From contig JACZJK010000016.1 of the NCBI GenBank assembly GCA_014860575.1, forward strand, positions 124,001 to 188,000: a DNA stretch of 64,000 nt. Direction: 5' to 3'. Shown here one piece after another: positions 29,782 through 55,444 of this stretch; the stretch's first letter is position 1, and the number at the start of each line of letters is the position of its first letter. The DNA is from Bacteroidales bacterium. GTDB lineage: Bacteria > Bacteroidota > Bacteroidia > Bacteroidales > JAAYJT01. The notes under the pieces are model-generated. The model saw nothing but the letters and a program-made list of their open reading frames with translations. It made no database searches and was not told the origin of the DNA. The position numbers were made by a program, and so were the translations under genes.

Positions 29782-32778
29782 ATGGATTACAACTTCAATG
29801 AAATAGAACGCAAGTGGCAGCAATACTGGAAAGCAAACGATACCTACAAAGTTGGTATTGATCATAACAGGCCCAAGTATTATGTGCTTGATATGTTTCC
29901 ATATCCTTCCGGCGCCGGCTTGCACGTTGGGCATCCACTGGGATATATTGCATCTGATATTTATTCCAGGTACAAACGGCTGAATGGGTTCAATGTATTG
30001 CATCCTATGGGTTTTGATGCCTACGGACTGCCTGCCGAGCAATATGCCATCCAAACCGGGCAGCATCCTGCGGTAACCACTGAGAAAAATATCCTACGCT
30101 ATAAAGAACAGCTTGAAAGAATAGGCTTTTCATTCGACTGGAGCCGCGAGGTTCGAACCTGTGATCCTAAATACTATAAATGGACGCAATGGACTTTCAT
30201 AAAACTTTTTGAGTCGTGGTATAATAAGAAAACCGATAGAGCCGAATCCATTGATAGCTTGATTGCTGCTTTTAAGGAAACCGGAAATACAGGTATTGAA
30301 GCAGCAGGTCCAGCTGTTGAAAGTTTCACAGCGGCTGAATGGAATGCAATGAGCGAAAATGAGCAACAGCAAATGCTGATGAATTACCGGCTGGCGTATT
30401 TATCTGAAACCCTCGTAAATTGGTGTCCCGAACTGGGAACCGTTTTGGCTAATGATGAGGTAAGCAATGGTTTTTCGGTTCGCGGAGGACATCCGGTTGA
30501 GCGCAAAATGATGCGGCAGTGGCAATTGCGCATTACTGCCTATACCCAGCGACTGCTTGAAGGACTTGATACAATTGACTGGTCGGAATCTATCAAAGAA
30601 ATCCAGCGAAACTGGATAGGCCGCTCCGAAGGAGCTGAATTAAGTTTTACAGTTACTGCTACCAATGGTGAACAGCTTGAAATTGAAGTTTTCACAACCC
30701 GCCCCGATACCATTTTCGGAGCCACTTATATGGTTTTGGCCCCTGAGCATGCATTGGTTGAAAAGATTACAACTGCCGAAAAGGCAATTTCTGTTGAGGA
30801 ATATGTAAAGTGGGCAAAGAACCGCAGCGACCGTGAGCGCATGACAGAAGTCAAAAAGGTGAGCGGGATGTTTACCGGCGCTTACGCGGTCAATCCGCTG
30901 AACAATAAAAAAATTCCCGTATGGATTGCCGATTACGTGCTCATGGGTTATGGAACCGGCGCCATCATGGCGGTTCCCGGTCACGACAGTCGCGACTTTG
31001 CTTTTGCCCGCCATTTCAACCTGCCCATTGTACAGGTAGTTTGTGGACATGGTGAGGAACCTTCTGACCCAGCAAACTGGGAGGGATCCTACGATGCAAA
31101 AGAAGGCGTGATGATCAACTCAGGCTTCATCAACGGAATGGATGTTCAGGATGGGATCAGTAAAACAATTGAGAAGATCGAAGAAATGGGCATTGGACGC
31201 GGAACCATTAACTACCGTTTGCGCGATGCCATTTTCAGCCGCCAACGTTATTGGGGCGAACCTTTCCCGGTTTATTATAAAGACGATATGCCTTACATGC
31301 TTCCAGAAGAGGAGCTTCCGCTCGAATTGCCTGAAGTTGATGCTTATTTGCCTACCGAAGCCGGCGATCCGCCGCTGGCCCGTGCAAAGAATTGGAAAAC
31401 CCAAGAGGGTTGGCCACTTGAAACCAATACCATGCCTGGCTTTGCTGGCTCCAGCGCTTATTATCTGCGCTATATGGACCCGCAGAACGATGAAGAATAT
31501 TTCTCGAAAGAAGCCAATGAATACTGGGAGAATGTAAACCTGTATATCGGGGGAGCGGAACATGCCACCGGTCATTTGATCTATGCCCGTTTTTGGAATA
31601 AATTCCTGTTTGACCTCGGCCTTGTATGCAAGGATGAGCCTTTTCAAAAACTGATCAACCAGGGGATGATACAGGGAGTAAGCCAAATGGCCAGAATACT
31701 TTATTATAGCCCAGAGAAAACGGAAGAGAACTTATTTGGTGGCGTTTCAAGTAACTCTTTGAATCAACCACCGTTTGAAGTTCCTGAAGAAAGTAATAAT
31801 GTCACAACATTCATACTCCCAGCTAATTTCCCACAAATGTTTGTTACTGAACACTTAAGGCATATTCCATTAGAGTTTGTTGATGAAAAAACTGGCGTGT
31901 TATCTGAGCAATCCTTATTAGAATTAAAGAAGCATTATCCTTTATTTGAGAAAGATAACTATAGGATTCCAAATTCTGATGAAGTTAGAAGTGTTATCAA
32001 GCCGTATTACTATGATGAGTTCAAGTCTGACTGGAATGATGAATGGGATTCATATTTTGAAACTGGGAAAGTGCTACTTAAGCCAGAAGTTGAAAAAATG
32101 TCTAAGTCCAAATTTAATGTTGTTAATCCCGATCAACTGATTGAAAAATACGGAGCTGACACCCTTCGGTTGTATGAAATGTTCCTTGGCCCGCTGGAGC
32201 AATCCAAACCCTGGGACACCAACGGTATTGAGGGCGTTTTCCGTTTCATTCGAAAACTCTGGCGCTTGTATCACGATCACGAAAACAATTTCGTGGTAAG
32301 TGATGAGGAGCCAAGCCCACAGGAATTAAAAATCCTGCACCGTACCATTAAGAAAGTAAGGGAAGATATTGAGCGCTTTTCGTTCAATACAGCAGTGAGT
32401 AGTTTTATGATCTGCGTAAACGAATTGGCTGAAATCAAGTGCAACAAACGCCCAGTTTTACAGGAGTTGGCAATTCTTATTTCGCCGTATGCGCCACACC
32501 TTGCCGAGGAGTTATGGCATCAACTTGGCAATGCCGGAAGCGTTTGCGATGCAACTTATCCGGCTCACAACGAAAAATACCTGGTTGAAAACACCTTTGA
32601 ATACCCGGTTTCATTCAACGGGAAAATGCGGTTCAAACTTGACCTGCCTCTGGACATGCCGGTTCCTGAAATTGAACAGGCAGTGTTGAATGCCGAAGAA
32701 TCAGAGAAATGGTTAGGTGGAAACCCACCACGTAAGATCATTGTGGTTCCGAGAAGGATTATCAATGTGGTAGTTTAA
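29782..32778 (+). CDS. leuS: Leucyl-tRNA synthetase with an enlarged insertion before KMSKS
   Basis: LeuRS charges tRNA-Leu. The HIGH motif is HVGH (residues 48-51), after [10 protein letters not shown]. The CP1 editing domain has [12 protein letters not shown], and the catalytic KMSKS motif is near residue 772. At 998 residues it is longer than the ~920-950 I would expect in this phylum. The extra length lies in about residues 632-769, between LINQGMIQG and KMSKS; this segment is AT-rich and has codon use unlike its flanks. The frame is intact and all catalytic motifs are present, so the enzyme should be active. The gene ends convergently with the usher-like gene: both stop codons sit in the palindrome TTAA. 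Confidence 0.97.
31676..32090 (+). other. Compositionally distinct insertion within leuS
   Basis: About 415 bases inside leuS, just before the KMSKS motif, are visibly richer in A and T than the flanks, with AT-ending codons preferred. This corresponds to the variable insertion of bacterial LeuRS, which in other Bacteroidota is shorter. It reads through in frame with no stop. Confidence 0.6.
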
Positions 32779-35717
32779 TCGCCTATTCTTCCCTGGAAGG
32801 AATTTATCCCTTGATTTTGCAATGTTGTGAAGCATTCAAGCGCTTCGGCCTGAGTTCTGAAATATCCGAACCTTAATTTGAACAAACCATCTTCCATCAC
32901 TATTCCTGAAGGGAATGGAATAAATTCCATCAGCTGAATTTTTAAGACCCTGGCAGCTTGCTCCGTTGTGAATGCTCCGGCCTGAATGTAATACACTCCC
33001 CTGTTCAGATCGAACCCATCAGGGTTTTCATTTTCTACGATTTGTGGTTCTATCTCTTCAGCTATAGTTTTATCCGTTGATATTGCAACCCCTTGCTCTG
33101 AAATTACAGTTTGCTGTTCTTCAACCTGACCGGGAACAGTCAGGGTTGCGCCTTCTTCACTAATACGGTGCAGGGTAAAATCGAGTCCGTCAACAATATC
33201 GCCATAGCTTAAAGCTTCAATCTTGAAGTCAATGCGATTTGGCTCCACACGTAATCCCAACTTTTGTAATTGCGCTGAATCAACTTCTGCATAATAACTG
33301 CCCGGCGACAGGCCGAGATAAGTCAGATAACCATCTGATTCCGACATGATTTTTTTCACAAATGTGCCATCGGCCTTGTAGAAGTTCACAAGTATACGGC
33401 CCAGGCCTCTGCTTACGCGATCCTCATACAAAGCTATCATACCATTGACTTCGCCCACTGGCAGTATAGGTATTTCAAGTTTTTTGAACTGGTTGGGATC
33501 AATGTAAACGCTTAATATCTTTTCACGTAGGTGCCAGGCTATGTTATCCAGTCCGCTTTCATCCAACTCAAGCAGATAGCTTGCATATGGTTCAAGTTCA
33601 ATAACGCGGATCAATGTATCATTAAGTGTTCGAATAATACGGCCACCGTTAATCCTGACTGCCAACCCGGTTGCCAAAGGCTCGTCCTTATCACGGATGC
33701 CATTGTGATTTATATCAAGGAAAGGTATAATGGTTAAGCCACCACGCCCGATTGAAGAACGGTTATCAGTGTGAATATAATTGTTGCCACTTCCAAAAGA
33801 AATGCTGCCACGCGCTCCCTGGCTTGTGGTAAGGAAGTCTTTGGTGATACGCGCCCCGGCATTTGTTTGTGCAAATGAAAGATCCCAGCGGAATGAAAAA
33901 TCCAGGCTACGATAGGCCATCCGGACATTTTCTTCGTATGAAACTGAGAAGTAACCTGATCGTAGAATTTTCTTTTCAAGTTCAGCCTTAATGGAAATCA
34001 GTTCTTTATTATTAACATCAAGCTGGGCCTGGGGTCGGAGAGAGAAGCCGCGGCCCAGCCGCATACCAAGTGCAAGATTGCTGTAAACAAACGGAGTGCG
34101 CTGGTCAATCCAGCTTGCATAGGCCGAAAGGTTCGCACTTATTCCCCCTAAATGCGTAGAGAGGGTCATGTCAGCGGTGTTGTAATTCAGGTTTTCATAA
34201 ATATTCTGTCTGAATGATAAACGAGTGAAACCTTTGAACTTTAAGAAACGCAGAGGAATTGCAAGCATGGCCTTGCGTTCTTCAAGATAATTAAAACGGA
34301 TGGCTTGCTGGTCTTCTTCATAATTGGCATAATCCAACTCAAACATCAGATTTGATGGAAGCCGGTAACTGAACAAGGCCCTGGCTCTGACACCATGGGC
34401 ATATTCCCCGCTCAACAGCATATTATTAAAGGGAGTAACAGAAGCTGACATGAATGGAATTTCTGCCCCAGCGCTAATGGATGAGAGATATTCCATACCG
34501 CCACCAAGTGTAAGAAAGCGATTCACTCCATAATTCAAAGCAGCACGCGAATAAATGGATTGATCTCCATCCTGTACCATACCGCCGGTAATATTGTACT
34601 CCAGTTCACCTTTGGGCAAAAAATTATAAGGGATATTAAGATATTGTTCCTGGATACGCTCTTCACCATAAGGCCCATAAAACTTAAGCACAACCTGCGA
34701 AGTTCCATAAACCATCGGGACATCGAAACTGAAAAACCCCGAAGCATCAGCAGTTACGTAATCAACTATTACATTATTAATGTAAAGTTCAACAGTCCAG
34801 CCGGGTTCAGTAAAATCAGTTAGGGTATATTCTCCAAAGGAGCGACGGAAAGTTGTTGGAGCATTGGTTGCTGTGACCCCTATAACCGGATTGTATATTG
34901 ATGAAATTGAACCAGTACTGATTTTTCCAACCCTTACCTGTTTGATTAATATTGTATTATTATTAGCCCAACGCCAGAGGTAATGCTGGTTTCGATCATT
35001 AAATCCGTCGCGTGTTGAGTAGTTGAGATAGATATTGGTTTCACCGCCCAGCATCTCGGATCCAATACCCAGTGATGCACGCGTATCAGATTCATTGCCA
35101 TTGATCTGGCTTGAACTGATTCCCCAATCTATCATTCCGAACCTTAAAAGATTGTAGTGACGAAAAATGGTTGTGTCTACTTCAACCTCCCCTCTTAACC
35201 TTTCAATGTTTTTACGCATCTGTTCCAACCTTAGTTCCCTTATCGCCGGCAATTCAAGTTCGGTTTTTAGTTCGACTGACAGGCTGCGGAAATGAAAAGT
35301 ACAATATAATCCGAAGGCTTTGCCAAAAACACCTGTGTAGAGGAATAATCCAAAATCTGTTTTAATGAGCTCGCCTTCTTTTAAGGGTATGGATGTTCCG
35401 TCAATCTGTATTTGCTGGTTGGTATGATCAACGAGGTAGCGTTTTTCTTCATCAATTAAAAATCCGCTGATAGAATCCAGATGGTGGGATACTTTATGAT
35501 TGATCCGCAGGTATTGAAATAACTCAGCAAGAGGTAACAGCAATTGGTCGTTTTCATAGGAATAAAGTGCATTGATCTCGAAACTTCCAACGCCTTGTAC
35601 ACGCATAAAAACAAATATCTCCTCGTATTCGGGCTCAGATACAATATCAGCAGCTAACAACCTGCACGGATACAGGCAGCAAACAACCAGGAATGCCAGT
35701 AAAATTGATCTGTTCAT
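32775..35717 (-). CDS. Usher-like outer-membrane protein with C-terminal SPOR domain
   Basis: This 980-residue protein resembles the usher of chaperone-usher pili, the pore that receives subunits from the chaperone and polymerises them. After a signal peptide ([12 protein letters not shown]...) there is an N-terminal domain with [18 protein letters not shown] and [10 protein letters not shown], like the usher chaperone-binding domain. A long beta-barrel region (about 180-660) follows. Near residue 320 lies a plug-like Ig module ([13 protein letters not shown] ... [12 protein letters not shown] ... [13 protein letters not shown]), the pattern seen in archaic ushers. C-terminal Ig-like modules begin at [13 protein letters not shown]. 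Unlike any usher I know, the last ~80 residues form a SPOR domain ([14 protein letters not shown] ... [11 protein letters not shown]). The ATG at 35717 is preferred over a TTG four codons upstream. Fold assignment is inference from pattern. Confidence 0.78.
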
Positions 35718-35787
35718 AGAAAATAACAATCCGTTTGATTATTTGATGAGGCTGCAAAAATGGTGAAAAATTAATGGTTGGTAGTTA

Positions 35788-36348
35788 TCATTCCTGGATA
35801 AAAGTCACATTAAAATTACCTGTATATTCTCCTGCCGGATTCGAAATAATGCTCCCAACATGAAGCGTGCCTCCGATTTGCACAGGGGTTCTGAATGGGT
35901 GTCCGGCTGAAGTTACAAAACTTGTCCCCTTATCGGTAGGTCCTATGGTCATAGTCATGGTTTCCCCTCCTGCAATACGTGTAAGGAAAGTGGTTTGAGG
36001 ACTGATCATGATATTTACAAGTCGTCCGGGAAGCAATTCAATTATAAAAATAGCAGGCTGACCTAAGCCACCAGCCAGCACAACGGTTCCTGTTGCAGAG
36101 CGCGAGCCAGTTGGGCTGATGATTACATTTCCTCCGGCACTGCCTGTATAAAAACCACCAAATCCAAGTTCCTGTGTTGCAAAAACTCTTATCTCACGTG
36201 GAGGTGGGAATGGAGAACCTTGTGCAAAAACGTTGTTAAAGACGCCAATTGTTAAAAAGAAAACGAAAAACAGCATCCGGAAAAAGCCAATGGTATTGTT
36301 GCTTTGGACGAAAAGAGGAAAGAATATTATTCTAAGGTGTTCAATCAT
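35788..36348 (-). CDS. DUF4402/spore-coat-U-like pilin subunit (possible tip or terminator)
   Basis: This 186-residue secreted protein is a beta-rich subunit of the DUF4402 type. It shares with the 170-residue subunit upstream the block GGNVIISPTGSRSATGTVVL and the C-terminal GGTLHVG ... AGEYTGNFNVTF. It ends in IQE, not the Tyr-Asn end of the other subunits, which may mark a special position in the polymer. There are no cysteines in the mature part. The start overlaps the chaperone stop by four bases (ATGA). An internal ATG at 36276 gives a more normal signal peptide (MLFFVFFLTIG ... FAQ), so the first 24 residues may not be used. It lies between chaperone and usher genes. Confidence 0.8.
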   Translation of the reverse strand: MIEHLRIIFFPLFVQSNNTIGFFRMLFFVFFLTIGVFNNVFAQGSPFPPPREIRVFATQELGFGGFYTGSAGGNVIISPTGSRSATGTVVLAGGLGQPAIFIIELLPGRLVNIMISPQTTFLTRIAGGETMTMTIGPTDKGTSFVTSAGHPFRTPVQIGGTLHVGSIISNPAGEYTGNFNVTFIQE

Positions 36349-37229
36349 TTATTCAGTAAAAGTTCCTGCTCATCATACATTTCTGGCTTGGCTTCGCTGG
36401 CGCTGCTATACCGGACAACAAGCTTGCCGGAACTATAGTCAACTCCATCGGGTTGACTTAGCTGCATGGAGAAGTTACGTTTGGAATTGGGCGTATATAT
36501 GGCTATTCCCCTTACTATTCCCACTTCAATGGGTTCGCCGACAGAAGGAACATAGTTTATCGTCAGATCTCCATACACCGATTGATTACCTTCACGATTC
36601 ATGGTCAGCGAAAAATCAGGTGGAGTATCTTCATTCAACTTAAGCGTCAGGTTGCTAAGCCTAACTCCGGCATTCAATTCGCCAATCCTGATAATAACAG
36701 GTATTGTGATACCAAATATGGGTGTAAGCCTGATACCGATAGCGGAAGTATCGGCTAGCATGTCTTCTTCTCCAAGAGGCTTCTCGTCAGGGACAGCCCT
36801 GAAGTACATATGCGACCTGTACTCTCCATTAACCATATCGGGCAATCTTCGCAATTGCATGCGAACCACCTGCGATTCGTTTGGAGCCAACGTTACTGAA
36901 CGCGGGAAAAACCGGAGATATGCATCAGCAAAAAACTGTCCCGGTTCGGGACTTTCTATTTGTTCAAAGCCTCCCTCTTCGGTCATTCGGTATTGCACAA
37001 ATGAAATTGAATATTTTGCTGTATCCTGGCCGGTATTTGCCAGGGTTATTTCCTGCTGTTGTCTGTTGCCTTCAAATACAACCCTTCGGGGTGTGATTAA
37101 TAAATCACCCTGTGCACTCAAAGCTAGAGGATAAGTGGACAAGGCAATAACAACTATAACAAACATAAACTTTACAGTTGCAAGAATCTGATATCCACAC
37201 ATGTTTTTGTGAAGGTTTGTTGATGTCAT
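36345..37229 (-). CDS. PapD-like periplasmic pilus chaperone
   Basis: This 294-residue secreted protein matches the fimbrial chaperone family. Domain 1 starts with LLITPRRVVFEG, equivalent to the first strand of PapD with its conserved Arg, which anchors the subunit C terminus. It continues with SVTLAPNESQVVRMQLRRLP ahead of a YRSHMYFRAVP strand. The subunit-binding G1 strand region reads IRLTPIFGITIPVIIR, close to archaic-type chaperones. Domain 2 (about residues 185-294) is the second Ig-like domain, including an NQSVYGDL strand. Signal cleavage is probably after LSAQ (residue 40). It should deliver subunits to the usher in the periplasm. It overlaps the downstream subunit gene by four bases. 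Some DUF families share this fold, but subunit and usher genes on both sides support the reading. Confidence 0.85.
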   Translation of the reverse strand: MTSTNLHKNMCGYQILATVKFMFVIVVIALSTYPLALSAQGDLLITPRRVVFEGNRQQQEITLANTGQDTAKYSISFVQYRMTEEGGFEQIESPEPGQFFADAYLRFFPRSVTLAPNESQVVRMQLRRLPDMVNGEYRSHMYFRAVPDEKPLGEEDMLADTSAIGIRLTPIFGITIPVIIRIGELNAGVRLSNLTLKLNEDTPPDFSLTMNREGNQSVYGDLTINYVPSVGEPIEVGIVRGIAIYTPNSKRNFSMQLSQPDGVDYSSGKLVVRYSSASEAKPEMYDEQELLLNK

Positions 37230-37356
37230 GGCAATGAATTTTAATGAATCCTCAAAACTACTATTTTTTTGAATCTAAATATTTAATCCGTTGAGGCAGC
37301 TATAAATAAATTGTTGTGCTGGTCCAATGGAATAATGAAAAACCACCGTTTCAAAA

Positions 37357-37869
37357 TCAATTATACGAGAAAGTCAGTTGAAAAGTTCCTGCATAGACGC
37401 CTACCGGGTTATCTTCATTGGGGCCAACATTAAGCACAGCGCCAATGCTCACCAGTCTTGAACCATCGGGCAAAGTGCTTGCTTCTGCACCTGCCGGCGG
37501 GTCAGACACCCATCCATCAACAAGCATAGTATTGCTGCTGCTCTGGTGTGTTAATACCGAAGGCCCATCGGGCAACTGTATTGTAAATGTGGCATCAGGC
37601 GCACCGGTGATAGTAAAGCGTCCGGGAGTATGTGGCCCGGATGCCAATATTACCGTTCCTTGCGCCGAACGAATACCGTCCGGACTGATCACAATGTTCC
37701 CCCCATTGGTTTCTGGTGAAAAACGGCCAAAGTTAAGTTGCTCATTTTCCTGCACAGTAAGGGCTTCGATGACCTCGGCAAAGGCTTGTGCCGTTATGCT
37801 GGACTGCGACCATGCATTGCCGGAAAGCATCACAAAAAGAGCGATTGCGGTAATGAGGCTGCGGTTCAT
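37357..37869 (-). CDS. DUF4402/spore-coat-U-like pilin subunit
   Basis: This 170-residue secreted protein has a signal peptide ending in WSQ. An N-terminal strand with alternating hydrophobic residues (SSITAQAFAEVIEALTV) would suit donor-strand exchange. The beta-sandwich core contains GGNIVISPDGIRSAQGTVIL and ISIGAVLNVG-like strands, and the end is AGTFQLTFSYN. A penultimate Tyr at the C terminus is a hallmark of chaperone-usher subunits. It is the first gene after the hairpin terminator at 37912-37941, so it is probably made at a lower level than the upstream subunit. It is 127 bases before the chaperone gene. There are no cysteines in the mature protein. Confidence 0.82.
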   Translation of the reverse strand: MNRSLITAIALFVMLSGNAWSQSSITAQAFAEVIEALTVQENEQLNFGRFSPETNGGNIVISPDGIRSAQGTVILASGPHTPGRFTITGAPDATFTIQLPDGPSVLTHQSSSNTMLVDGWVSDPPAGAEASTLPDGSRLVSIGAVLNVGPNEDNPVGVYAGTFQLTFSYN

Positions 37870-37911
37870 AGTATTGTGTTAGTTTATAAGTTCCTTGAGC
37901 TAAAAAGAAAA

Positions 37912-37941
37912 AAGGGCAAGTGATCTGCATCATTTGCCCTT
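37912..37941 (-). terminator. Hairpin terminator after the first pilin subunit, probably leaky
   Basis: The arms AAGGGCAA and TTGCCCTT form an 8-bp stem with a ~14-base loop. On the minus strand a T-rich run (TTTTCTTTTT) follows. It lies 19 bases past the stop of the 168-residue subunit and 42 bases before the next subunit start. No -7 box is visible in between, so partial read-through is the simplest reading. Confidence 0.7.
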
Positions 37942-37959
37942 CCGTTCCCAATTTATTTT

Positions 37960-38466
37960 TTAGTTGTAGTTAACAATCACATCAAAAACACCTGTGTATG
38001 CGCCAGCTGCTTGGTCTGCATTTACATTCAGTGTGGCACCTACCTGGAAGGTTTCTGTTCCTCCGGTTAATACTTCTTCAGCATTGTGTACAAAAGCTGT
38101 CAGTTCCATATCTGGACCAACTCCGCTAAGCTTGATTGCTCCGTCTGCGGGCAAGGTAATGGAGTAAACAGCTCCCGAAAATCCTGTTGCAGTAAATTCT
38201 GCTGATGAAATGGTTCCTGGTACTGTTGGAAACGTTGCTCCTCCTGCTTGTGTCCTGTTATTTGAAACATCAACTGTTACTGTGCCGATTGTAGCGCTGG
38301 CAATAATGTTACCAAATGCTAAATCTTCAATTTTTTCAATTGAAATAGGGGTAATGATAAATGCGGTAGCAGTGGCTTGATCTGAAACATTGTACTGGGC
38401 GTTTACGTTTTCAACTGCGATTGTCATCAGGAAAAGACCGGCGAAGAGAGCGATTAATTTTTTCAT
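37960..38466 (-). CDS. Candidate major pilin subunit, DUF4402 type
   Basis: This 168-residue secreted protein has a clear signal peptide (MKKLIALFAGLFLMTIAVENVNA). An alternating N-terminal strand with ATATAFIITPISIEKIEDLAFG is typical of DUF4402/spore-coat-U-like subunits. The middle is Gly/Thr/Val-rich, as in structural proteins. It ends AGAYTGVFDVIVNYN, again with penultimate Tyr. It has its own promoter (38555-38562) and an 88-base leader, and is followed by a terminator, so it should be the most abundant product of the locus, as major pilins are. No cysteines. Mass and fold fit a fibre subunit; that it forms pili is inference. Confidence 0.85.
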   Translation of the reverse strand: MKKLIALFAGLFLMTIAVENVNAQYNVSDQATATAFIITPISIEKIEDLAFGNIIASATIGTVTVDVSNNRTQAGGATFPTVPGTISSAEFTATGFSGAVYSITLPADGAIKLSGVGPDMELTAFVHNAEEVLTGGTETFQVGATLNVNADQAAGAYTGVFDVIVNYN

Positions 38467-38724: not shown

Positions 38725-41700
38725 TTAATATAGGAAGATTTTGCGTGAGAGAGAACCCTTATTACCAAGTATGCGTGCGATGTACAAGCCTTTTGAGTAA
38801 TGAAGAATATTGGTAGTTGTCCCTCCATTGATAACCTCATGCCTGATTTTTCTACCCGACAAATCGTAAAGCTCAAAAGTAAATATACCTTCTGCCAGCC
38901 GGAGGTCTATTTGAATTTGTTGGTTGTACGCATATATGCTACCCGGAATAGCCTGATGTGGGTCAGGGAAATCACCAGCTACAAATTGGAGGATAAAACG
39001 ACCGGGTCTATCGTTTGTGCCGGCTTCAAAAGTATAAGATGGATTAATCTTCAGGTTATGGATTTTGCCAGTCTGCTTATCATGAAGTTCGAGCATATCA
39101 AACAATCCGGTTGGGAAAACCGCTTCAAGAGAATAAGCGCCATTTTCGCCTGCCTTAAAAGCGATAGGGATCACAGGATATTCAGCATTTTTCCCAAGTA
39201 ATTGCAAAGAATAGTTTTGTCCGTTTTTAGGAATAAATAAACTAGGAGCTTTTTTAACAAAACTGAATTTTTTTGGGGAACCGGTGGCTGTTTTGGGCTG
39301 GTTAAACTCCAGCATTACTTCATCGTATCCAAATCCGTCAGATGATTTTACAACCAGGTGTAGAGCATCACCAACTTCTTTCGAGCTTTTTAGCCAGTTT
39401 CCGGCATCATCATGAACACGAACTTCATCGGTCATTCCAAGCATGCCTGATGCAACGGCTGATTTAATAAAGAAACCCTGGGTTGGTGCAATATAACGCT
39501 TAACTCCGAGCGTGCCTTCGTCGCTTACCGAAGCGGAATTGAATATGCCATAATTAAAAGCGGTGTCGTTCCAGATCCAGATATCATAACCATCGTTTGA
39601 AATTTCGAGGTCGTTTCTTGACCAACCGCTTGAGGCTTTCCAATCAATTGATGAAGGGTATGGGTTTCCAACCAGATTGGCGCCAGACTCATTGCCCAAC
39701 CCAACTGACTTGGTTATAGCTATATTCATCGGCCCACTATTTAGAATCCCGGCGAAGTTTTTTGTCGGGTGTTCATCCAGATAGGCTACAAGATAACCCT
39801 TTCCTGGTATGAAATCAGCACTGCTATGAACCTCATTCCATGTTGGTGGATTTTGTGTGTTGAGCAAATATACCCATGAGGTATCGGGTTCGAACCAGGT
39901 GTAAAAATCATACCTTGTTCCATCGCCATAGCTGCCAGGACCGCCGGTTGGAGTGAATTCCCCTGAAATTTCCTGATTTGAAACAGCTGAGGAAAGCAGG
40001 TGCCAGGCTTCGGGTTCACCACTTATATAACGTTGAAATGTGGCTGGCGTATTTGAAGAATAGTGCAAAAGCGAACCTGTTCCAAGGCTCGATGACCTGA
40101 TTATCAATCCTGATTCCCCCGAATAGTTGGTAAGCTGGTTCAGCACAGTTAATGTGCTTGTTGAGTTTGTTGTCAGTAATGCCCCGGATTGTATTTCCAG
40201 ATCGAATATTGTTACATCTGAAGATATTATTTCCGGATCATTGTTAGAGATTGGGATGATTACGAATGATGATTCGTCGGGCAATACGGGCTTGCTCCAA
40301 TTACCAGGTTTATTCCAGTCGCTGTCAATATTGCCGGTCCAAACCCATTTACACAGATTTCCAGCACTCAATTCGCCGGAAATGATAAAGAAGTTTGATG
40401 GGTCATTTTGATTATTGAATTCTGTTGCGATCCAACCAGCATCATGAACTTCTGCCGAGATGGAGACTTCATCAATTTGTCCGACGAAGTAATTGTCTCT
40501 CCTGCCAATAAACTGTATAGCCGTTGCAACAGGGTTTAAATCATTGCAATTGCTTGTGAAGGTAAAGTTCAGAACACCGTCAATAAACAACTGCTGAGGT
40601 TGACCGGTTTCGTAAGTATAAACTATGTAGTGCCAATTTGCGCCTGCCCCGTTTGTAATACTTCCGGGGTTGTTTATCCAGCTACACCAGGTGCTGTTAT
40701 TGCCATATCCTCCATGAATAGTAGTGTGTGAGTAAATCCATAAACCTGGTGAGCGGATAGTTGTACCACCAGCTCCACTCCCTATGAACCCATGATAAGC
40801 ATTATCAGGTTGATTGGATCGGATCCAAAGGGAGAAAGTGCCTTTGGTTCCCGGAAGGATATTGGTTCCAAGGTTAATGGCATCGCTTCCTGAAAACTGT
40901 GTTGCGGATCCTATTTTCCCATTTACCTGCTGCGGATTGCCTTCATAAGAAACGCTATGGTGAGCATTAGCCGTGTAATCTGTTGTGATTTCGGATGGCG
41001 TATTTTGATTTAAGTGGTAACGAGCCTTGTATTTCGATGACCATGTATTTGCAGTAGAAAGATCAATAGAGACGTTACCTTTTCCATAATACATCTGTAT
41101 AATGGTGTTCTGAAGATTGCTTAACACAGGAATTCTGATCCAGGCGATGAATTCTCCAGTGCTTCCGTCGTATTTTTCAACCTGGTAATCCAGTGTTGTT
41201 GAACAGTCATCGAGGGTAAATAGAATGTCATAACCATTGGGGTTTTGCACTTTTCCACCATGTAAAGTATGCCTCAGATCGGGGTCAGTGAAACTTACCA
41301 GCACCGGAAAATCCTGGTGCGATCCACTGCCTTCCACCTTTGATGCAAGGATTGTAATTTGTTTTCCATTGGTAAACAACGCCGGTGGGTAGAAATCCAA
41401 TACTTCGATATAATTTGTCTTGGTTTCAGTGTACGTCCCATTGAGGGTGAGGCTGACTGTTTTACTGCCGGATGTGCTATAGATTACATCATGTGGCCCT
41501 GGTGTGGTAGCTGTTGCGGGTATTGCACCTGCTCCGAAATCCCAAAGCCATGATGTTATGACTCCGGTTGAATTATCCGAAAATGTAATTGTTTCTCCAG
41601 TAAAGGTTGTTAGCGGATCAGCAATAAAATCAACTTCATATATAGCTGGCGTGCCGGTTAACGTAACATCATCAACTGACCAATACCAATCCCAGGTGCC

Positions 41701-42678
41701 GGTATAATTCCATTTTATACTCACTTGCGATTGATTGTCCAGTTCAGGAACGACGATGCTAAAGAAAGTGGGATTAGAAATGGTTTGTGTCCATTGCTGA
41801 ATATTGGACCAGGATTGGCCACCATTAGTACTGTAGGCCAAACTGGCTGTAGAATATATGTATTGGCGAAAGTAATGCGAAAATGACAAAGTAATACTGT
41901 TGAACCCTGAACAATCAATTATTGGTGAAATTAAGTCAGTGTTTTGAGAATTTCCACTGCCATAGGCATCACTATTTAAGTACGCGTAGTTTCCAACGGT
42001 ACCATTCATTGATCCACCCCTTCCTATTTGCCATATCTGGCCGCTACCCTGATGGTCGGTTATTATCCAGTCAGTTGGAAGGTTATCTGAAGTGTTAAAG
42101 TTTTCGGAAAAGGGCAACGAATAAAGGTTAACTACCGGCGTATAATTTAACTCCAACTCAATAAGATCAACATAAACCAGACGGCGATTACCGCCTCCAA
42201 TGCTGCCAGTGGAGGTAATCAGGACTTGCAGCGAATTCAGGTCTTCCCTGGTAAAATTATAACCACTCCAGGTCTGAGTATACATGGTAAAATTGTGGCT
42301 CATGTCTAAAGTCATGATTTTATTACCAAGAAGGTTGTTGTTGACCCTTAGATTAATGTCCAACCCTCTTGTATTTCCACTACTACTGCTTTTACAAACC
42401 CTTGCCCTTACAGTAATTTCAGAATAAACTCCCGGGTAGGTTGGGTTTCCTATGCTCACTTCGGCTGTTGAATTTGCATTATTTGGGCAGGTAATAAAAG
42501 CCCCATTTGGGTTTTGTGATCCTTCATTAATTTTAGACCACAATGGCGGTGTTGTCCACACTCCTGTTGTTATATCACCGTCTGGCTGTCTGATCTGGTT
42601 AGTTGGCTGTGCATTGGCCAGCAGCATTCCCGAGAACAAGACACTAAAAAGAATCAACGTCTTTAATCTTACGATCAT
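38725..42678 (-). CDS. Large T9SS surface protein with DUF2341, LamG-like and PKD domains
   Basis: This 1317-residue secreted protein has a signal peptide (1-23) and an N-terminal beta module (25-155). Then come an anchor-J-like domain (about 186-345, YSLPFSENFNTSD), a PKD domain (about 347-425), a DUF2341 domain (about 450-550, NGYDILFTLDD and YYGKG) and a LamG/concanavalin-like domain (about 560-755). A repeat-containing region with WVWTGNIDSDWNKPGNW and a final type A sorting domain (LYDLSGRKIR ... SRKIFLY) complete it. Such proteins bind glycans or act as adhesins and are exported by T9SS. It lies immediately upstream of the pilus-like locus on the same strand, but a promoter separates them, so a shared function is only possible. 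Confidence 0.9.
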   Translation of the reverse strand: MIVRLKTLILFSVLFSGMLLANAQPTNQIRQPDGDITTGVWTTPPLWSKINEGSQNPNGAFITCPNNANSTAEVSIGNPTYPGVYSEITVRARVCKSSSSGNTRGLDINLRVNNNLLGNKIMTLDMSHNFTMYTQTWSGYNFTREDLNSLQVLITSTGSIGGGNRRLVYVDLIELELNYTPVVNLYSLPFSENFNTSDNLPTDWIITDHQGSGQIWQIGRGGSMNGTVGNYAYLNSDAYGSGNSQNTDLISPIIDCSGFNSITLSFSHYFRQYIYSTASLAYSTNGGQSWSNIQQWTQTISNPTFFSIVVPELDNQSQVSIKWNYTGTWDWYWSVDDVTLTGTPAIYEVDFIADPLTTFTGETITFSDNSTGVITSWLWDFGAGAIPATATTPGPHDVIYSTSGSKTVSLTLNGTYTETKTNYIEVLDFYPPALFTNGKQITILASKVEGSGSHQDFPVLVSFTDPDLRHTLHGGKVQNPNGYDILFTLDDCSTTLDYQVEKYDGSTGEFIAWIRIPVLSNLQNTIIQMYYGKGNVSIDLSTANTWSSKYKARYHLNQNTPSEITTDYTANAHHSVSYEGNPQQVNGKIGSATQFSGSDAINLGTNILPGTKGTFSLWIRSNQPDNAYHGFIGSGAGGTTIRSPGLWIYSHTTIHGGYGNNSTWCSWINNPGSITNGAGANWHYIVYTYETGQPQQLFIDGVLNFTFTSNCNDLNPVATAIQFIGRRDNYFVGQIDEVSISAEVHDAGWIATEFNNQNDPSNFFIISGELSAGNLCKWVWTGNIDSDWNKPGNWSKPVLPDESSFVIIPISNNDPEIISSDVTIFDLEIQSGALLTTNSTSTLTVLNQLTNYSGESGLIIRSSSLGTGSLLHYSSNTPATFQRYISGEPEAWHLLSSAVSNQEISGEFTPTGGPGSYGDGTRYDFYTWFEPDTSWVYLLNTQNPPTWNEVHSSADFIPGKGYLVAYLDEHPTKNFAGILNSGPMNIAITKSVGLGNESGANLVGNPYPSSIDWKASSGWSRNDLEISNDGYDIWIWNDTAFNYGIFNSASVSDEGTLGVKRYIAPTQGFFIKSAVASGMLGMTDEVRVHDDAGNWLKSSKEVGDALHLVVKSSDGFGYDEVMLEFNQPKTATGSPKKFSFVKKAPSLFIPKNGQNYSLQLLGKNAEYPVIPIAFKAGENGAYSLEAVFPTGLFDMLELHDKQTGKIHNLKINPSYTFEAGTNDRPGRFILQFVAGDFPDPHQAIPGSIYAYNQQIQIDLRLAEGIFTFELYDLSGRKIRHEVINGGTTTNILHYSKGLYIARILGNKGSLSRKIFLY

Positions 42679-43986: not shown

Positions 43987-45336
43987 TTAGTCCCTTTTGA
44001 GTTTATATTTTTCGATTTTTGCATTTAGCGTTGGGCGGGTGATATCAAGTATTCTTGACGCTTCCAGTTTGCTCCAATGCACTGCCTTAAGAATTCGTTG
44101 TATGTGATCCCTCTCAACATCGGCTAGCGAGACCAGGCTAATATTTTCATTATCCGACAAAGATTTATCCTTGTAATTAAGGTGAACATGTTCGCGTTCC
44201 AACACATCGCCGCGTGATAGTATAACGGCCTGGGTCAAAACATTCTCCATTTCCCTTATGTTACCGGGCCAGTTGTAGCTTTTAAGCAGTTCAACAACAC
44301 CATCTTCAATCTTAACAATATTCTTGTTTAGTTTCCTGTTCAGTTTCTGGATCAAATGAGTTAACAATTCAGGAATGTCTTCAAGCCGGTCCCGTAATGG
44401 GGGCAAAACAATATTGAAAACCTTGAGATTGAAATATAATTCTTTCAGCAACGTACCTTTTGCAACAAGATCATCAAGGTTTTTACTCGACGAAGCAATT
44501 ATCCTGGATTGGAAAGCAGGAGTGTGTTCCAGGTCATTTTTTTGGAATTCCATTTCCTGTAAAACCCGTAGCAGTTTACCCTGAAGATGAATGGATAATT
44601 GTGGAAATTCATCAATAAGCACAGTGCCTTCGCCCGCCAGATCCAGTTTTCCTCTTTTATCTCTTTTTGCACTATCAACCAATCCTTTGGTATTACCGAA
44701 AAGTTCTGCTTCAAGCTCGGCTTCATCAGCGGCGCTGCAATTTACAACTACCAATGGATGATCACGTGTTATTCCGCTGTAATGAATAAGCCTGGCTACC
44801 TGTTCTTTGCCCGTGCCGGTTTCTCCGGTTACAAGCACATTCATTTTAGTAAGCGAGATGCGACCAATGTTTTTAAATATTTCCCGCATAACAGGCGTCT
44901 TGCCTGCCAAGAGGTTATCTTCAATGGCTTTACGGGCGGTATATGAAATTGTTTCCGTTAAGCTCTGACTTTGAATCGAGGCCTGGATCCCATTACGTAT
45001 GGCTTCTAGTAATTCTTTTGGCTGGATGGGCTTTTCAATAAAATCATAAGCACCTGCCTGAATGGATTTTATAGTTAATGAAACATCGCCATGAGCAGTT
45101 AACACAATTACCGGGATGCCAGGCTGCATCCTCGCCATTTCAGCTACGACATCAAGCCCCGAAATACCTGGCATTCTGAAATCAGTTACAACAAGATCCG
45201 GGTTCCGGTTTTTAGCTACAACCAGACCCGATTCTCCATCACTTGCCGTCATCACCTCATATCCCGATTTTTTAAGCAGGTTGCCAAGCAGCAATAAAAT
45301 AATCTCATCATCATCAATTACCAGTATTTTTTTCAT
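43987..45336 (-). CDS. NtrC-family response regulator without the sigma-54 (GAFTGA) loop
   Basis: This 449-residue protein has a receiver domain (phosphorylatable Asp52 in VTDFRMPG, Lys102 of EKP), an AAA+ domain and a C-terminal Fis-type helix-turn-helix (SKLEASRILDITRPTLNAK). Walker A (GETGTGKE, 171-178) and Walker B (VLIDEF, 239-244) are kept. However, the GAFTGA loop that contacts sigma-54 reads GLVDSA (218-223), and the two arginines expected in the RxDLYYRL segment are Leu297 and Asn303. It therefore should not activate sigma-54 polymerase in the usual way and may act as a simple DNA-binding regulator. No histidine kinase is adjacent. A TACCTTTG box lies upstream. Its targets are unknown; the pilus-like locus and the large macroglobulin are neighbours. 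Confidence 0.9.
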   Translation of the reverse strand: MKKILVIDDDEIILLLLGNLLKKSGYEVMTASDGESGLVVAKNRNPDLVVTDFRMPGISGLDVVAEMARMQPGIPVIVLTAHGDVSLTIKSIQAGAYDFIEKPIQPKELLEAIRNGIQASIQSQSLTETISYTARKAIEDNLLAGKTPVMREIFKNIGRISLTKMNVLVTGETGTGKEQVARLIHYSGITRDHPLVVVNCSAADEAELEAELFGNTKGLVDSAKRDKRGKLDLAGEGTVLIDEFPQLSIHLQGKLLRVLQEMEFQKNDLEHTPAFQSRIIASSSKNLDDLVAKGTLLKELYFNLKVFNIVLPPLRDRLEDIPELLTHLIQKLNRKLNKNIVKIEDGVVELLKSYNWPGNIREMENVLTQAVILSRGDVLEREHVHLNYKDKSLSDNENISLVSLADVERDHIQRILKAVHWSKLEASRILDITRPTLNAKIEKYKLKRD

Positions 45337-45705: not shown

Positions 45706-48700
45706 ATGAAAACGATCTTATTCAAAACTCTTGCTGGTTTACTGGCGGTATTAGCCCTGTTTTTGTATTTCACAACTTACTCATCCAAGTCATCTATTAT
45801 GCAACCAACCATTTATAAAGAGTTTTGGCAAAAAGCTGACTCTTTGAAAGATGCAGGAATACCGGGCGCCGCAATGACTGTTGTGGAGCAAATCCATCAA
45901 CAGGCAAGGCTCGAAAATAATCCACCTGAACTTGTCAAAGCAATTCTTTACAAAATCAGTCTGAGTTCTGAATTTGAAGAAGATCATCTTGAAAAAAGCC
46001 TTGCCATGGTTGACGAAGCCATAGCCTTGGCCGATATGCCTGCCTTTTCGGTGTTGCATTCCATACAGGCTGAATTATATTTCAGATATTTTACAACCAA
46101 CAGGTATTTGATCCTGGATCGCACCACAATTGATCAAGCTCCAGGCAACGACTTAAAAACATGGGATGCTGAAGCCATTATCACAAAAGCAGCATGGCAT
46201 TATCTTCAGTCAGTTAAAGATACTGACGAGCTTAAAAAAACAACTGCAGATTATTTTTCATCCATCATCGAAGAAAAGGAAGAGTCAAAAATTTATCGCC
46301 CTACGCTGTTTGACTTGCTGGGGCATCGTGCACTTGATTTTTTCATGAACCCTCAAGCTTCAATTATTCAACCCAGAGATCCTCTCAGCCTGAACCAGGA
46401 ATCTTATTTTGCCAGGGCAAATAGCTTTTCAAACGAGGTTTTGCCCGAGCCATCATCATTGTCATTTAACTATCATTCACTTGAAATACTCAGGCAATTG
46501 ATCGGGTTTCATCTTCAGGTAGATAGAACATTGGCGCTTGTTGATTTGGATCTGAAAAGACTTGCCTGGCTTCGCAATAACGCAACATTAGAAACCAAAG
46601 ACCAGCTTTATTATCAGGCGCTTGAGCATCTTGAAAAAGAATATGCGAGCACTGCAACATTTCCTGAAATTACGTATGCCATTGCAACCGAATTGGTTAG
46701 AATGGGCAATACTTACGATCCCTTTAACAATCCTGAGCCGCGCCTGAAAATTAAGGAAGCGATTGAGAAACTGGAAATCGCTATTAAAAATAATCCTGGA
46801 CTACCTTCAGCGAAAAACTGCAGCAACCTACTGACGCAGATAACCCAGCCAAATCTTCAGGTTCAGATGGAGTATGTCAACCTACCGGACAAACCTTTTA
46901 AGGCGTTGGTTTCGCATAAAAATGTAAAAAAAATATATCTGCGTGTTATCAGCCTCGAACCTGAAGCTGACCGAGAACTCAGAAATACCAACAAGGAAGA
47001 AAAGGACTTAATTAAGGCCTATCTAAACTTGGAGCCTTACACTTCCTGGCATCAGGAATTGCCAGATGACGGAGACATGCAAACACATAACACCGAAATT
47101 CCCTTTCCGGCCTTACCCAAAGGATATTACATCCTGATCGCAGGTCTTGATTCAGCTTTCAGTTCTGAGCCGCAAACGCTGGCGCACACTTCATTCTGGA
47201 ATTCTGCAATAAGTTTTGTTACTCGCAATAACGCGGATGGAAGCATAAAATTCCTGGTGTTGGATCGCGAAAACGGTAAACCGCTGCAAAATATTAGTGC
47301 TACCACTTATCAACGGCAATATAATTCAAATACCCGCTCGCATGATTTTATAAAAGGCAAGAGCTTTACAACTTCAAGTGATGGAACTTTTACCATACAG
47401 GCTCCGGAAAAGCGTGCACCGCATTCATCCTATGCACTTGATTTTCATTCAGCTAAAGATCGCTTGTTTACAGAAAACTTCTTTTCACAACAACGTTATG
47501 ATCACGACAACCGCATGCGCACCCAAACCTTCTTTTTCACCGATCGCGCTCTGTATCGCCCTGGCCAGCTTGTTTATTTCAAAGGTATAGTAATTGACAC
47601 CAACGGTGAAACGCATGAACTGAAAACAAATTACCGCATCACTGTTACACTCTATGATGCCAACTATAGGAAGGTTTCAGAGTTAGCGTTGGTTAGCAAT
47701 GAGCATGGATCATTTTCAGGGAATTTTGCGCTGCCTTCTGATTTGCTCACCGGCAGTTTGCAGTTAAGCAACGAAAATGGAAACATTTCATTTTCAGTTG
47801 AAGAATATAAATTGCCCCGATTCGAAGTAAAATTCGATACGCTGAAAGAAAGCTACAAACTCGGAGAAACATTAAGCATTCATGGGCAGGCTATTGCTTA
47901 TGCCGGAAATCCCATTAGCAATGCGCAAGTCAGGTTCAGGGTTACGCGTCAAGCCCGTTTCCCATTCAGGGACTACAGATACAGATCAATTTTTCCATCC
48001 GGTCCACCAACTGAGATTCTTAACGGAGAAATTCAAACCGATGCAGAAGGGAAATTTACAGTCACTTTTATTGCTGCTCCAGACCTGACAATTTCATCGG
48101 CACACAAGCCAGTATTTATATTTAATGTGATGGCCGATGTAACCGACATTCAAGGTGAGACCCAAAGCGGAAGCACCATGATCGGTGTTGGATATATCTC
48201 CCTAATTCTTAGCTCCAATATCAATGAACTGATTGACCGCAATGAATTCGACGGATTTACCGCCAAAGCCACAAACCTAAACGGTATAGAACAGGAAGTT
48301 AGCGGTGAAATGAAAGTAAGTCGGCTTAAACAACCCAGCCGGCTGATGCGAGAAAGAAATCATAGCCGCCCCGATCGCTTTGTTATGGATAAAGCCACTC
48401 ATGATAAATTGTTCCCGCTCGATGTGTATAATTATGAAAATGATCCGGAATCCTGGGAAATTGAAAGCATGGTGTTCTTATCCGAGTTCAACACCGGATT
48501 GAAAGATAAATTAATGCCACCCAGCTTTGGATCGTGGGAACCCGGAACGTATGTAATTGAATTGAAAAGCAAAGATGCATTCGGCGAAACAGTTGAGTTT
48601 AAAAGGCATTTCACAATTTTTAAACCATCGGATCGCAAGCTTCCTGGACAGCATATTTGGTGGTCGCATGTATTAACACCAACGTTGGAACCGGGTCAGA

Positions 48701-54900: not shown

Positions 54901-55311
54901 ATCTATTCGTTCAATATCGGAACGGTTGGCAAGCTGCGTGATTGCTTCCGGAGTTGCGTAACAGTTGATCACATTGGCGATCCAAAGCGGTTTTACCTGG
55001 ATGACTTCACCTGTCTTGCTCAAAGCATCAAGTTCCTTCAACAGACCTTCCTGCGATGCGTTCGCAAAGGATTTCAGTTCAGTTACGATATATGAGCGGA
55101 CTTGTGCCTGGTTCAGATGCTGAAGGATATCTTGTTTTGATGTAGGATCATATTGTTCTACAAGCCGGATGTTTATGGGTAACAACTCAGATTTGTGGGT
55201 TTTGCTTATCTCTGAAACCAAATCAGGAGTCAGCTTATTTTGTGCAACTGCTGTTGTTGCAACCTGCGCTACAAGCAATACAACCAGCAAAAGGGTCAGT
55301 TTATTTTTCAT
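51940..55311 (-). CDS. T9SS-exported subtilisin-family (S8) serine protease
   Basis: This 1123-residue secreted protease has a signal peptide (MKNKLTLLLVVLLVAQVATTAVAQ) and an inhibitor-like propeptide (about 30-120). The S8 catalytic domain has Asp near residue 185 (AVLDTGVNYDHDD), His near 224 (HGHGTHCAGT) and Ser near 425 (SGTSMAAPGA). About 500 residues of beta-sandwich modules follow, then a type A sorting domain (FPNPSEGRF ... STRILIFR). It would be exported by T9SS and act outside the cell. The frame stays open for 56 codons upstream of the ATG at 55311, but the signal peptide and a TACTTTTG promoter between the two positions fix the start. Confidence 0.95.
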   Translation of the reverse strand: MKNKLTLLLVVLLVAQVATTAVAQNKLTPDLVSEISKTHKSELLPINIRLVEQYDPTSKQDILQHLNQAQVRSYIVTELKSFANASQEGLLKELDALSKTGEVIQVKPLWIANVINCYATPEAITQLANRSDIERIDLDEERILIDPVEITELEYVGSKEITYNVNIMNVPQVWSLGFTGEGIVVAVLDTGVNYDHDDLEGNMWSHADFPLHGWNFINNTNNPMDYHGHGTHCAGTVAGNGNAGSQTGMAPSVKIMALQVLGSDGGGTEAGVWDGIQFAVEHGANVMSLSLGWQHAWNPDRASWRDAMDNALAAGVIASVASGNEGGGSAPSNVRTPGDVPAPWRNPDQPDTGGRSAVVTIGATDASDDLAAFSSRGPVTWQNIQPYSDYPYNPGSGLITPDVTAPGVNVKSLSHSNTSGYAVMSGTSMAAPGAAGVMALVLSKNPWLKPAQLSQVLEETALAMTPLKSNTFGAGRVDALAAIIQTNFAGPVYVSHGVNDDEGNNNGFVNPQEFIKLSLTLVNDSGLGFENVETTITTESPYVSMVSDTVSFGSFEPGETIEIADAVSFNTSGQIPGGYVMVFKVESTDGNLVWKNSFSIMAHAPNMVIGSMLIDDSAGNGNGQLDPVELVGMSFDIFSNGQMDAINPELTITVSSPFLTIHNSHFPFETMPPSSFQTVLFDAEVKDFAPIGSVIEMVCNVQYGSYIFTRTFFMRVGLEVEGFEAGNFSNYNWDFVGHQPWVVTPADPYQGSFSAKSGDIDHDQMSVILLNYDVSADDSVSFYRRVSSEPTNDFLRFYINWQLMGEWSGEVDWDKVTYPVSAGSNSFAWMYKKNTTISSGEDAAWIDVVSFPLSPVTTAWAGINATICENLILQLQAYASNFSSIEWTSSGNGSFSDPNILNPVYTPGLEDIEIGQVTLTLTVSDGEESVTDVLLLTIEELPVQPATPAGPASVDLHKITQSSYQIESITNADHYEWVLEPEEAGALSADGVQATIAWNTDFLGNATLKVIAINHCGQSEVSQELEIELFNSVGIAEINLLNMRVFPNPSEGRFIIAFDSRVKTDGFIFVSNSLGETVYSEPIAIENGHFSYSLDLSQLSQGIYNLVVYSDQGQSSTRILIFR

Positions 55312-55348
55312 TAAATTCTGATTAGCATTGTGATGTTGAGAAAGAAAG

Positions 55349-55356
55349 CAAAAGTA
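55349..55356 (-). promoter_or_regulatory. -7 box for the subtilase gene
   Basis: On the minus strand this is TACTTTTG, an exact match, 37 bases before the ATG at 55311. It rules out the longer start. A TTG 14 bases upstream is too close to be a good -33 element. Confidence 0.5.
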
Positions 55357-55444
55357 GGCAAAAGGACTCACAATAAACTGAATTAACGTTTCTGCGACAG
55401 GTTGGACTTTTGTGACCTTGTGTCCACTCCGGAAAGAAATTTGA

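Follow-up and report, generated by a model that had tools for sequence, protein, structure and literature searches.

Genes, predicted folds and conserved linkage point to a divergent chaperone–usher fibre system in Bacteroidota

The window analysed here is a 64,000-nucleotide stretch of the genome of a Bacteroidales bacterium (assembly GCA_014860575.1, contig JACZJK010000016.1, positions 124,001 to 188,000), whose own numbering is used throughout. Five open reading frames (ORFs) on its minus strand, spanning 32775–38466, encode in reading order DUF4402 subunit A, DUF4402 subunit B, a periplasmic chaperone, DUF4402 subunit C and an usher. We conclude with high confidence that this locus is a chaperone–usher (CU) fibre system from a clade that is divergent and has gone unrecognised, because fold, profile and gene linkage all lead to this verdict. 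The initial annotation of this DNA had proposed five same-strand genes with a CU complement; the ORFs lie where it placed them, and folds and profiles agree. The source genome (66 contigs, 4.4 Mb, 95% complete) contains one such chaperone, one such usher and three DUF4402 matches, all three in the five-gene locus. Routine Pfam models fall short for both the chaperone and the usher, and the naming of these proteins was therefore tested by structure and profiles.

The usher (32775–35717, minus strand) is 980 residues long when translated from the ATG at 35717; the ORF (32775–35729) gives 984 residues if started at TTG. Pfam returned no Usher match for it. The Pfam result consisted of a C-terminal SPOR domain (32796–33002, minus strand, model residues 884–952; PF05036, E 1.5e-6, over the cut-off) and a weak SdrD_B-like stretch, and an NCBIfam scan gave nothing over the cut-off. 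A single-sequence search of the PDB produced SPOR at E 0.034 and one chance match, and a PDB profile search with the ushers gave SdrD, SPOR and other C-terminal-domain or chance matches alone. The AlphaFold2 model (alignment of 74 sequences) has a mean predicted local distance difference test score (pLDDT) of 83.9 and a predicted template modelling score (pTM) of 0.63. It consists of an N-terminal domain (about residues 1–130), a large barrel with an internal plug (residues 286–339, 34635–34796, minus strand; block pLDDT about 59–76), C-terminal β-sandwiches (637–829), a disordered linker and the SPOR fold. Six to seven strand segments precede the plug and 18 strands follow it; the position of the plug within the barrel rather than at the N terminus is described in an excerpt of PMC3960871 as an unusual feature of ushers.

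The usher-like barrel and plug, on which the initial annotation had staked its proposal, are thus both present in the model. Indeed, ranks 1–18 of a Foldseek search against the PDB were all FimD or PapC (E 5.6e-26 to 3.5e-14), the first other row being SdrD (E 1.2e-9). VIA-align superimposed the model on FimD with Z 19.3 (536 residues, root-mean-square deviation (rmsd) 7.6, 13% identity) and on the PapC pore with Z 18.3 (376 residues, rmsd 4.7). Among the listed entries, the 15 ushers span Z 16.6–19.3, and the best non-usher was a porin with Z 14.1. The C-terminal part of the model aligns to FimD up to residue 833–834. Profile comparison with hhalign gave the same answer. Aligned over 740 columns, the profile of 40 Bacteroidota ushers matched that of six E. 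coli ushers (E 9.9e-6; controls: LptD 0.29, FhuA 0.64, BamA 0.12), and with 26 further sequences, 66 in all, the match was E 3.1e-14 (LptD, FhuA and BamA 0.13–0.6; reversed ushers 0.12). Against three archaic ushers the profile gave E 3.7e-11. Archaic and E. coli ushers match each other at 3e-24, and the distance of the new usher family to either group is therefore larger than that between the two groups.

The chaperone (36345–37229, minus strand) is a 294-residue PapD-type protein of two domains. Its PapD_N match (E 0.0065) does not reach the curated cut-off; a single-sequence PDB search gave no match, and a PDB profile search with the chaperones was also unproductive. Its AlphaFold2 model (255 residues, numbered from Q40; pLDDT 86.6) contains two immunoglobulin (Ig) domains, with a low-confidence disordered loop (111–131) between strands F1 and G1 and a G1 strand at 134–143. 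CfaA and CsuC occupied Foldseek ranks 1–4, with CfaA best, and 46 of the 50 listed rows were CU chaperones, the other four being WxLIP (three) and CEP192. CsuC was first in VIA-align (Z 13.7, rmsd 3.7). With signal peptides on, the chaperone profile matched three archaic chaperones at E 2.2e-12, compared with 5.1e-7 for six classical E. coli chaperones; with signal peptides removed, 57 chaperones matched the archaic ones at E 4.9e-11 (reversed, 0.52). The earlier assignment of a PapD-like chaperone is borne out by these results.

Five positions (R10, P70, R99, P138 and R142) are invariant in 30/30 close homologues and in 6/6 proteobacterial chaperones. In the profile alignment R10 aligns with the FimC arginine that we take to be Arg8, and P70 with the first Pro of the adjacent pair in FimC (TPP). 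P70 is also kept in 21/21 distant Bacteroidota chaperones. This alignment and the spacing suggest that P70 is the D1 proline, which is described as invariant across the chaperone superfamily (excerpt of PMC4654587). Strand F1 carries R99, which follows P70 by 29 residues and in the alignment falls on the YR of archaic chaperones; by residue numbers in the same excerpt, the proline-to-F1-Arg spacing is 30 in CsuC (Arg89) and 29 in EcpB. Since R10 and R99 are both invariant, the branch to which the window belongs has a classical-position as well as a non-classical arginine. Candidates for the second-domain CsuC Tyr196/Arg174 anchor, chosen by spacing alone, are R212 (30/30) and Y235 (20 Tyr, 9 Phe, 1 gap), neither of which is conserved in the distant Bacteroidota chaperones.

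All three subunits pass the Pfam DUF4402 model: A (37960–38466, minus strand, 168 residues) at E 8.1e-26, B (37357–37869, minus strand, 170 residues) at 1.3e-28 and C (35788–36348, minus strand, 186 residues) at 1.6e-18. The gene for C overlaps that for the chaperone by 4 bases. Subunit A has a signal peptide (by eye), and A and B both carry an alternating N-terminal stretch and end in VNYN and FSYN respectively, as would befit polymerising-type subunits. Subunit C has a short, Pro-rich N terminus and ends in FIQE. The initial annotation was correct in giving two of the three subunits a penultimate Tyr (A and B end Tyr-Asn, C ends Gln-Glu). Its alternating N-terminal strand, claimed for all three, is seen in A and B and not in C, which has no clear donor-like stretch.

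By profile, DUF4402 matched 14 spore-coat-U pilins from archaic loci of Sphingomonas and Variovorax at E 9.4e-12 with signal peptides on and at E 9.3e-8 with signal peptides removed. Cutting kept 83/102 DUF4402 and 10/14 spore-coat-U rows; the 19 and 4 rows without a cutting motif were dropped. After cutting, the controls (own chaperones, E. coli chaperones, E. coli pilins, type IX secretion system (T9SS) tails and reversed pilins) gave 0.086–0.35. The alignment covers the domain, and the xFG and C-terminal GxYxxTxxVTxxY stretches match. E. coli pilins gave E 0.012 with and 0.25 without signal peptides. The spore-coat-U family itself (SCPU, PF05229) was not among the 20 families listed for 57 subunits (E up to 1), 53 of which matched DUF4402; a separate scan in which PF05229 matched none of 21 genomes nor the controls is uninformative. 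Because DUF4402 is related to the spore-coat-U pilins, the comparison suggests that these subunits have an incomplete Ig fold, lacking the G strand, that would be completed in trans.

The neighbourhood is conserved. Among the best 80 of 263 usher relatives all 80 are titled as Bacteroidota taxa, named Chitinophaga and Seramator strains among them, and these searches supplied 81 loci, the window included. In 76/81 the gene immediately preceding the usher gene encodes a DUF4402 protein; of the exceptions (L019, L039, L050, L056 and L058), three (L019, L050 and L058) are truncated near the beginning of the usher gene. Cultured, non-pathogenic carriers include Chitinophaga pinensis (L097) and C. 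ginsengisegetis DSM 18108 (L068). The chaperone was seen in 30/81 loci (E 1e-5), some loci ending short of it and some having a very long intervening gene. We then surveyed 395 Bacteroidota genomes, the source genome included. The usher profile (E 1e-20) matched in 75, the weakest matches being partial, the chaperone in 66, DUF4402 in 63 and all three in 51. The chaperone was present in 64/75 usher genomes and in 2/320 others; on these counts the co-occurrence of usher and chaperone is more than chance, with the caveat that related genomes are not independent. Four (G085, G132, G140 and G396) of the 11 usher genomes without a chaperone at the threshold turn out, on direct reading, to have one adjacent to the usher. 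DUF4402 had no match in 19/75 usher genomes, and seven genomes have DUF4402 without an usher. At 20 distant loci picked by hand from the 75 the chaperone is beside the usher in 20/20 and directly before it in 19/20, and 17/20 have a DUF4402-like ORF, some at E 1e-3 or worse. The same neighbourhood, for which the initial annotation had advised a survey, recurs in the phylum. One distant locus (L115), from a Bacteroidota family (f76) with many genomes, carries an additional DUF4402 gene that follows the usher. One usher match (G345:C33:123994-126573) contains four internal stop codons and is therefore probably a decayed gene.

Across the loci the subunits fall into two classes, 51 that do not adjoin the usher gene and 76 directly before it. 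The non-adjoining class has Tyr at −2 in 46/51, Asn at −1 in 41/51 and an alternating N-terminal stretch, whereas the usher-preceding class mostly ends F-x-Q-E (F in 55/76, Q in 52/76, E in 47/76). N termini were scored with a crude cleavage-site rule that left 53/127 subunits unscorable, so that the following means and medians refer to 35/51 non-adjoining and 39/76 usher-preceding subunits. The mean best alternating run was 4.97 in the non-adjoining class (3.25 shuffled) and 2.87 in the usher-preceding class (1.92 shuffled; shorter segments). The usher-preceding class has on average 3.28 Pro in the first 14 residues, compared with 0.29, and a median of 17 residues before the xFG motif, compared with 23. 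In type 1 and P pili every pilin except the tip adhesin is described as having an N-terminal extension (excerpt of PMC3960871). By analogy, the Pro-rich usher-preceding class, including subunit C, is a candidate for the tip, or first, subunit.

Two features of the system, the SPOR domain and a linked T9SS-sorted protein, are absent from the initial annotation. SPOR was found in 18/40 ushers (E up to 0.001; 20/40 at E up to 1). Upstream of the fibre genes, at 38725–42678 on the minus strand, lies a gene for a 1317-residue protein with DUF2341 and PKD matches and, in its last 110 residues, a T9SS sorting domain (TIGR04183, E 8.6e-9). The genome encodes SprA and therefore probably has a T9SS. This protein is a probable partner of the fibre cluster, because such genes recur in the loci of relatives. 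The T9SS sorting domain was found in 55/88 long upstream ORFs. From the list of these ORFs, 41 were picked by position as lying directly upstream of the usher-preceding DUF4402 gene, and 41/41 match the domain (E up to 0.01), compared with 14/47 of the others. We considered that the link might be mere background, T9SS-sorted genes being common; the contrast of 41/41 with 14/47 rejects this and makes the link real at the position directly upstream of the last subunit. The window's own T9SS gene stands upstream of the whole gene set and hence belongs to the 14, not the 41. None of the five cluster proteins matched a T9SS sorting model in the Pfam and NCBIfam scans.

Some of the T9SS-sorted proteins upstream of the last subunit are giants of 2500–3100 residues or more (L068 1232-9403, L028 2-9379, L042 3-9392 and L020 1684-9402), and in L020 and L068 the giant gene sits between the last subunit and the chaperone. 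Elsewhere in the window three more T9SS-sorted proteins, one of them a subtilase, are encoded at 2943–6815, 6978–8669 and 51940–55479. A sigma-54-dependent response regulator that may regulate the fibre cluster is encoded upstream of it and of the T9SS gene (43987–45336, minus strand), and a bacterial alpha-2-macroglobulin of 2020 residues is encoded on the plus strand at 45706–51768.

The picture of a system confined to Bacteroidota proved too narrow, since related loci occur on proteobacterial plasmids. A tblastn search against plasmids found relatives of the chaperone and the usher together in Polaromonas (two), Sphingopyxis, Novosphingobium and Pseudoalteromonas. Six of the seven plasmid regions examined have both genes, in the order subunit–chaperone–usher. 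A DUF4402 gene is annotated just upstream in 5/6; in the sixth (Bsw20308) that place is taken by a small gene without a name. Annotations of the six ushers read 'carboxypeptidase(-like) regulatory' in four cases and 'SdrD B-like' or hypothetical in the others. Two of the five scanned chaperones pass the PapD_N cut-off of 23 (JS666 25.3, P. xiamenensis 23.2), two fall short of it and that of Sphingopyxis lacks a PapD_N match. SPOR is present on one Pseudoalteromonas usher, and the other is flanked by SPOR genes: in Pseudoalteromonas xiamenensis (L140 2594-8534) separate SPOR-domain genes lie on both sides, followed by a TPR gene, whereas at other loci SPOR forms part of the usher itself. A tree of 72 ushers separates the family clearly from the six E. 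coli ushers, and in it the usher of L115, a Bacteroidota locus, groups with Polaromonas (support 0.84), which suggests transfer, although the order at the base has a support of 0.39. Of the plasmid loci L134 3970-7589, L135 4855-8436 and L136 4254-7818, those of Polaromonas lie near IS6 transposases, and the system may therefore be mobile. A Deferribacter megaplasmid (L139 7905-8354) has a DUF4402 gene without an annotated chaperone or usher alongside, and a search of viral contigs found no relative.

Several observations weigh against a CU assignment. The fibre itself is inferred from genes and predicted folds. Identity of the usher to known ushers is 11–14%. The N-terminal domain of FimD recruits complexes; that of the usher modelled here was unaligned in VIA-align, where the usher rows begin at model residues of at least 141. 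Pfam Usher (PF00577) was over the cut-off in 0/390 Bacteroidota genomes; the four sub-cut-off matches in these genomes all lie within genes of the new usher family, and among 40 usher homologues one matched (E 8.1e-4). For the window chaperone fn3_5 (E 8.7e-4) beats PapD_N, and at E up to 1 it matches 23/30 homologues compared with 18/30 for PapD_N. An invariant Pro (P138) occupies the classical position that we take to be Lys112 of FimC. Of 21 distant Bacteroidota chaperones (L099-L118), 20 lack R10 and one has it, and in 20/21 the F1-strand Arg is two residues later (101). An Enterococcus WxLIP (PDB 9i25_C) was a close second to CsuC in VIA-align (Z 13.5), but with an rmsd of 7.7. A WxL identity for the chaperone was dropped because an usher sits beside it; separately, the closeness may hint at a deeper link between WxL and chaperone–subunit pairs. 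With signal peptides on, DUF4402 also matched the control of its own chaperones (E 1.1e-4), and the signal peptides were therefore cut before the comparison. A PDB profile search with DUF4402 gave a weak match to CD4 (E 0.0012), which we read as chance Ig likeness, and other chance-like matches. Finally, three of the 20 distant loci (L112, L114 and L117) show no DUF4402-like ORF.

We infer that the locus works by donor-strand exchange. The subunits would be delivered to the periplasm by Sec, where the G1 strand of the chaperone would cap each incomplete Ig-like DUF4402 fold, with the C terminus of the subunit anchored at the conserved arginines in the chaperone cleft. Chaperone–subunit complexes would dock on the usher and the plug would move aside. 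The N-terminal strand of each incoming subunit would then displace the chaperone strand from the preceding subunit, and the fibre would grow outward via the usher barrel. Subunit C, Pro-rich and without a clear donor strand, would enter first as the tip, and A and B would form the shaft. Through its SPOR tail the usher may be attached to peptidoglycan. The neighbouring T9SS-sorted protein would be exported separately to the surface and cooperate there with the fibre, for instance in the role of adhesin or cell-surface partner. It is possible, and we offer this as a tentative extension, that the whole is a hybrid organelle in which a SPOR-tethered usher extrudes a DUF4402 fibre without a tip adhesin and a T9SS-exported giant supplies the adhesive or load-bearing part. 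If so, two unrelated secretion routes would build one appendage.

CU machinery does not always make hair-like pili; the Caf1 capsule and the Myxococcus spore coat are precedents. The machinery here could likewise be genuine and its product a surface layer or thin capsule-like coat. A coat would be in keeping with the small size and low number of the subunits, with the lack of any recognised two-domain lectin-like adhesin among the cluster proteins and with the relation of DUF4402 to spore-coat-U domains. However, one separate class of subunits has no clear donor strand, which suggests a defined tip, something that a tip-less capsule would not need, and on balance we consider a coat unlikely, while giving it real weight. 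Far less probable is that the chaperone and the usher-like protein form a dedicated exporter of single DUF4402 proteins, or of the T9SS-linked protein, rather than a polymeriser. The embedding of a T9SS-sorted protein in many clusters (41/41 of the long genes directly upstream of the last subunit) might be taken to favour such an exporter, but that protein bears a T9SS signal itself and SprA is encoded in the genome, and several subunits per locus, one class of them with alternating N-terminal stretches, fit polymerisation. The phylum would lead one to expect a type V fimbria of Bacteroidia, assembled by way of lipoprotein and protease, since the fimbriae characterised there are type V according to excerpts of PMC5789003, PMC4789730 and PMC7835359. 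We regard this reading as having almost no chance of being right: the genome has no match to the FimA-type model PF06321 (E 0.001; the sole type V model tried), subunits A–C have no lipobox by eye, and an usher and a chaperone are present.

A CU fibre system being by far the best account, the question is how it relates to the described classes. The initial annotation had likened it to the archaic (sigma; Csu/CupE) class, and for chaperone and subunits the likeness stands: the window chaperone is closest to CsuC by VIA-align, the chaperone profile matches archaic chaperones better than those of E. coli, the F1-strand Arg of the window chaperone corresponds to CsuC Arg89 (excerpt of PMC4654587), and the subunits are nearest to spore-coat-U pilins. 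It does not extend to the usher, which is nearer to the six classical E. coli ushers (3.1e-14) than to the three archaic ones (3.7e-11) and is below Pfam Usher. The SPOR tail and the T9SS partner of the locus are further differences from the archaic class. The subunits match DUF4402, with SCPU not in their list, and most of the first, non-adjoining class end one residue after the aromatic. The window chaperone also has the classical-position Arg10, whereas archaic chaperones are without an A1-strand Arg anchor. The locus should not, therefore, be filed as archaic, related as it is: it keeps the classical-position Arg, its ushers fall short of Pfam Usher and its subunits have no spore-coat-U match. 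With classical pili (Fim, Pap) it shares the usher barrel and internal plug, R10 and the proline aligned to FimC TPP; it differs in Pro138, which replaces the classical Lys, in the lack of a recognised two-domain adhesin in the cluster, and in that DUF4402 has no profile match to E. coli pilins. To alternative pili (ECP, CFA/I) the links are CfaA as best Foldseek match of the chaperone and profile matches to EcpB (E 2.6e-5) and EcpC (E 7.9e-5). EcpE (0.0021) and EcpA (0.039) depart from this, and with these single-sequence profiles the links are weaker than those to archaic chaperones and classical ushers. T9SS cargo is represented by the linked gene and its sorting domain; the five cluster proteins differ from such cargo, and T9SS-sorted genes are common in the phylum. 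New compared with the known CU classes are the SPOR and T9SS attachments and the Pro-rich tip candidate.

Among the matches listed in searches of the open-licence literature we found no description of CU pili in Bacteroidota; subscription papers and preprints lie outside this scope, and priority is unproven. Nor did the open-licence full texts searched mention DUF4402 (PF14352). An excerpt of PMC4827864 places the usher family in Proteobacteria, Spirochaetes, Cyanobacteria and Deinococcus-Thermus without naming Bacteroidota. The archaic class is distributed similarly, again with Bacteroidota unnamed, in excerpts of PMC4654587 and PMC10104325, and is placed in 'a wide range of phyla' in one of PMC9452303. 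The CU pathway is stated to be lacking in the Bacteroidota species Cytophaga hutchinsonii (excerpt of PMC7906972), and CU systems were excluded from the survey of PMC4793230, as its excerpt states.

If our reading is correct, about a fifth of the sampled Bacteroidota genomes (75/395) possess CU fibre machinery that goes unreported by Pfam Usher, and the related ushers of proteobacterial plasmids currently go under other annotations. DUF4402, a domain of unknown function, would gain a testable role as a pilin, and a peptidoglycan-binding tail would have been added to the usher. A chaperone with both kinds of arginine offers material for studying how the classical and archaic anchors diverged, and the reading as a whole would be testable in cultured Chitinophaga.

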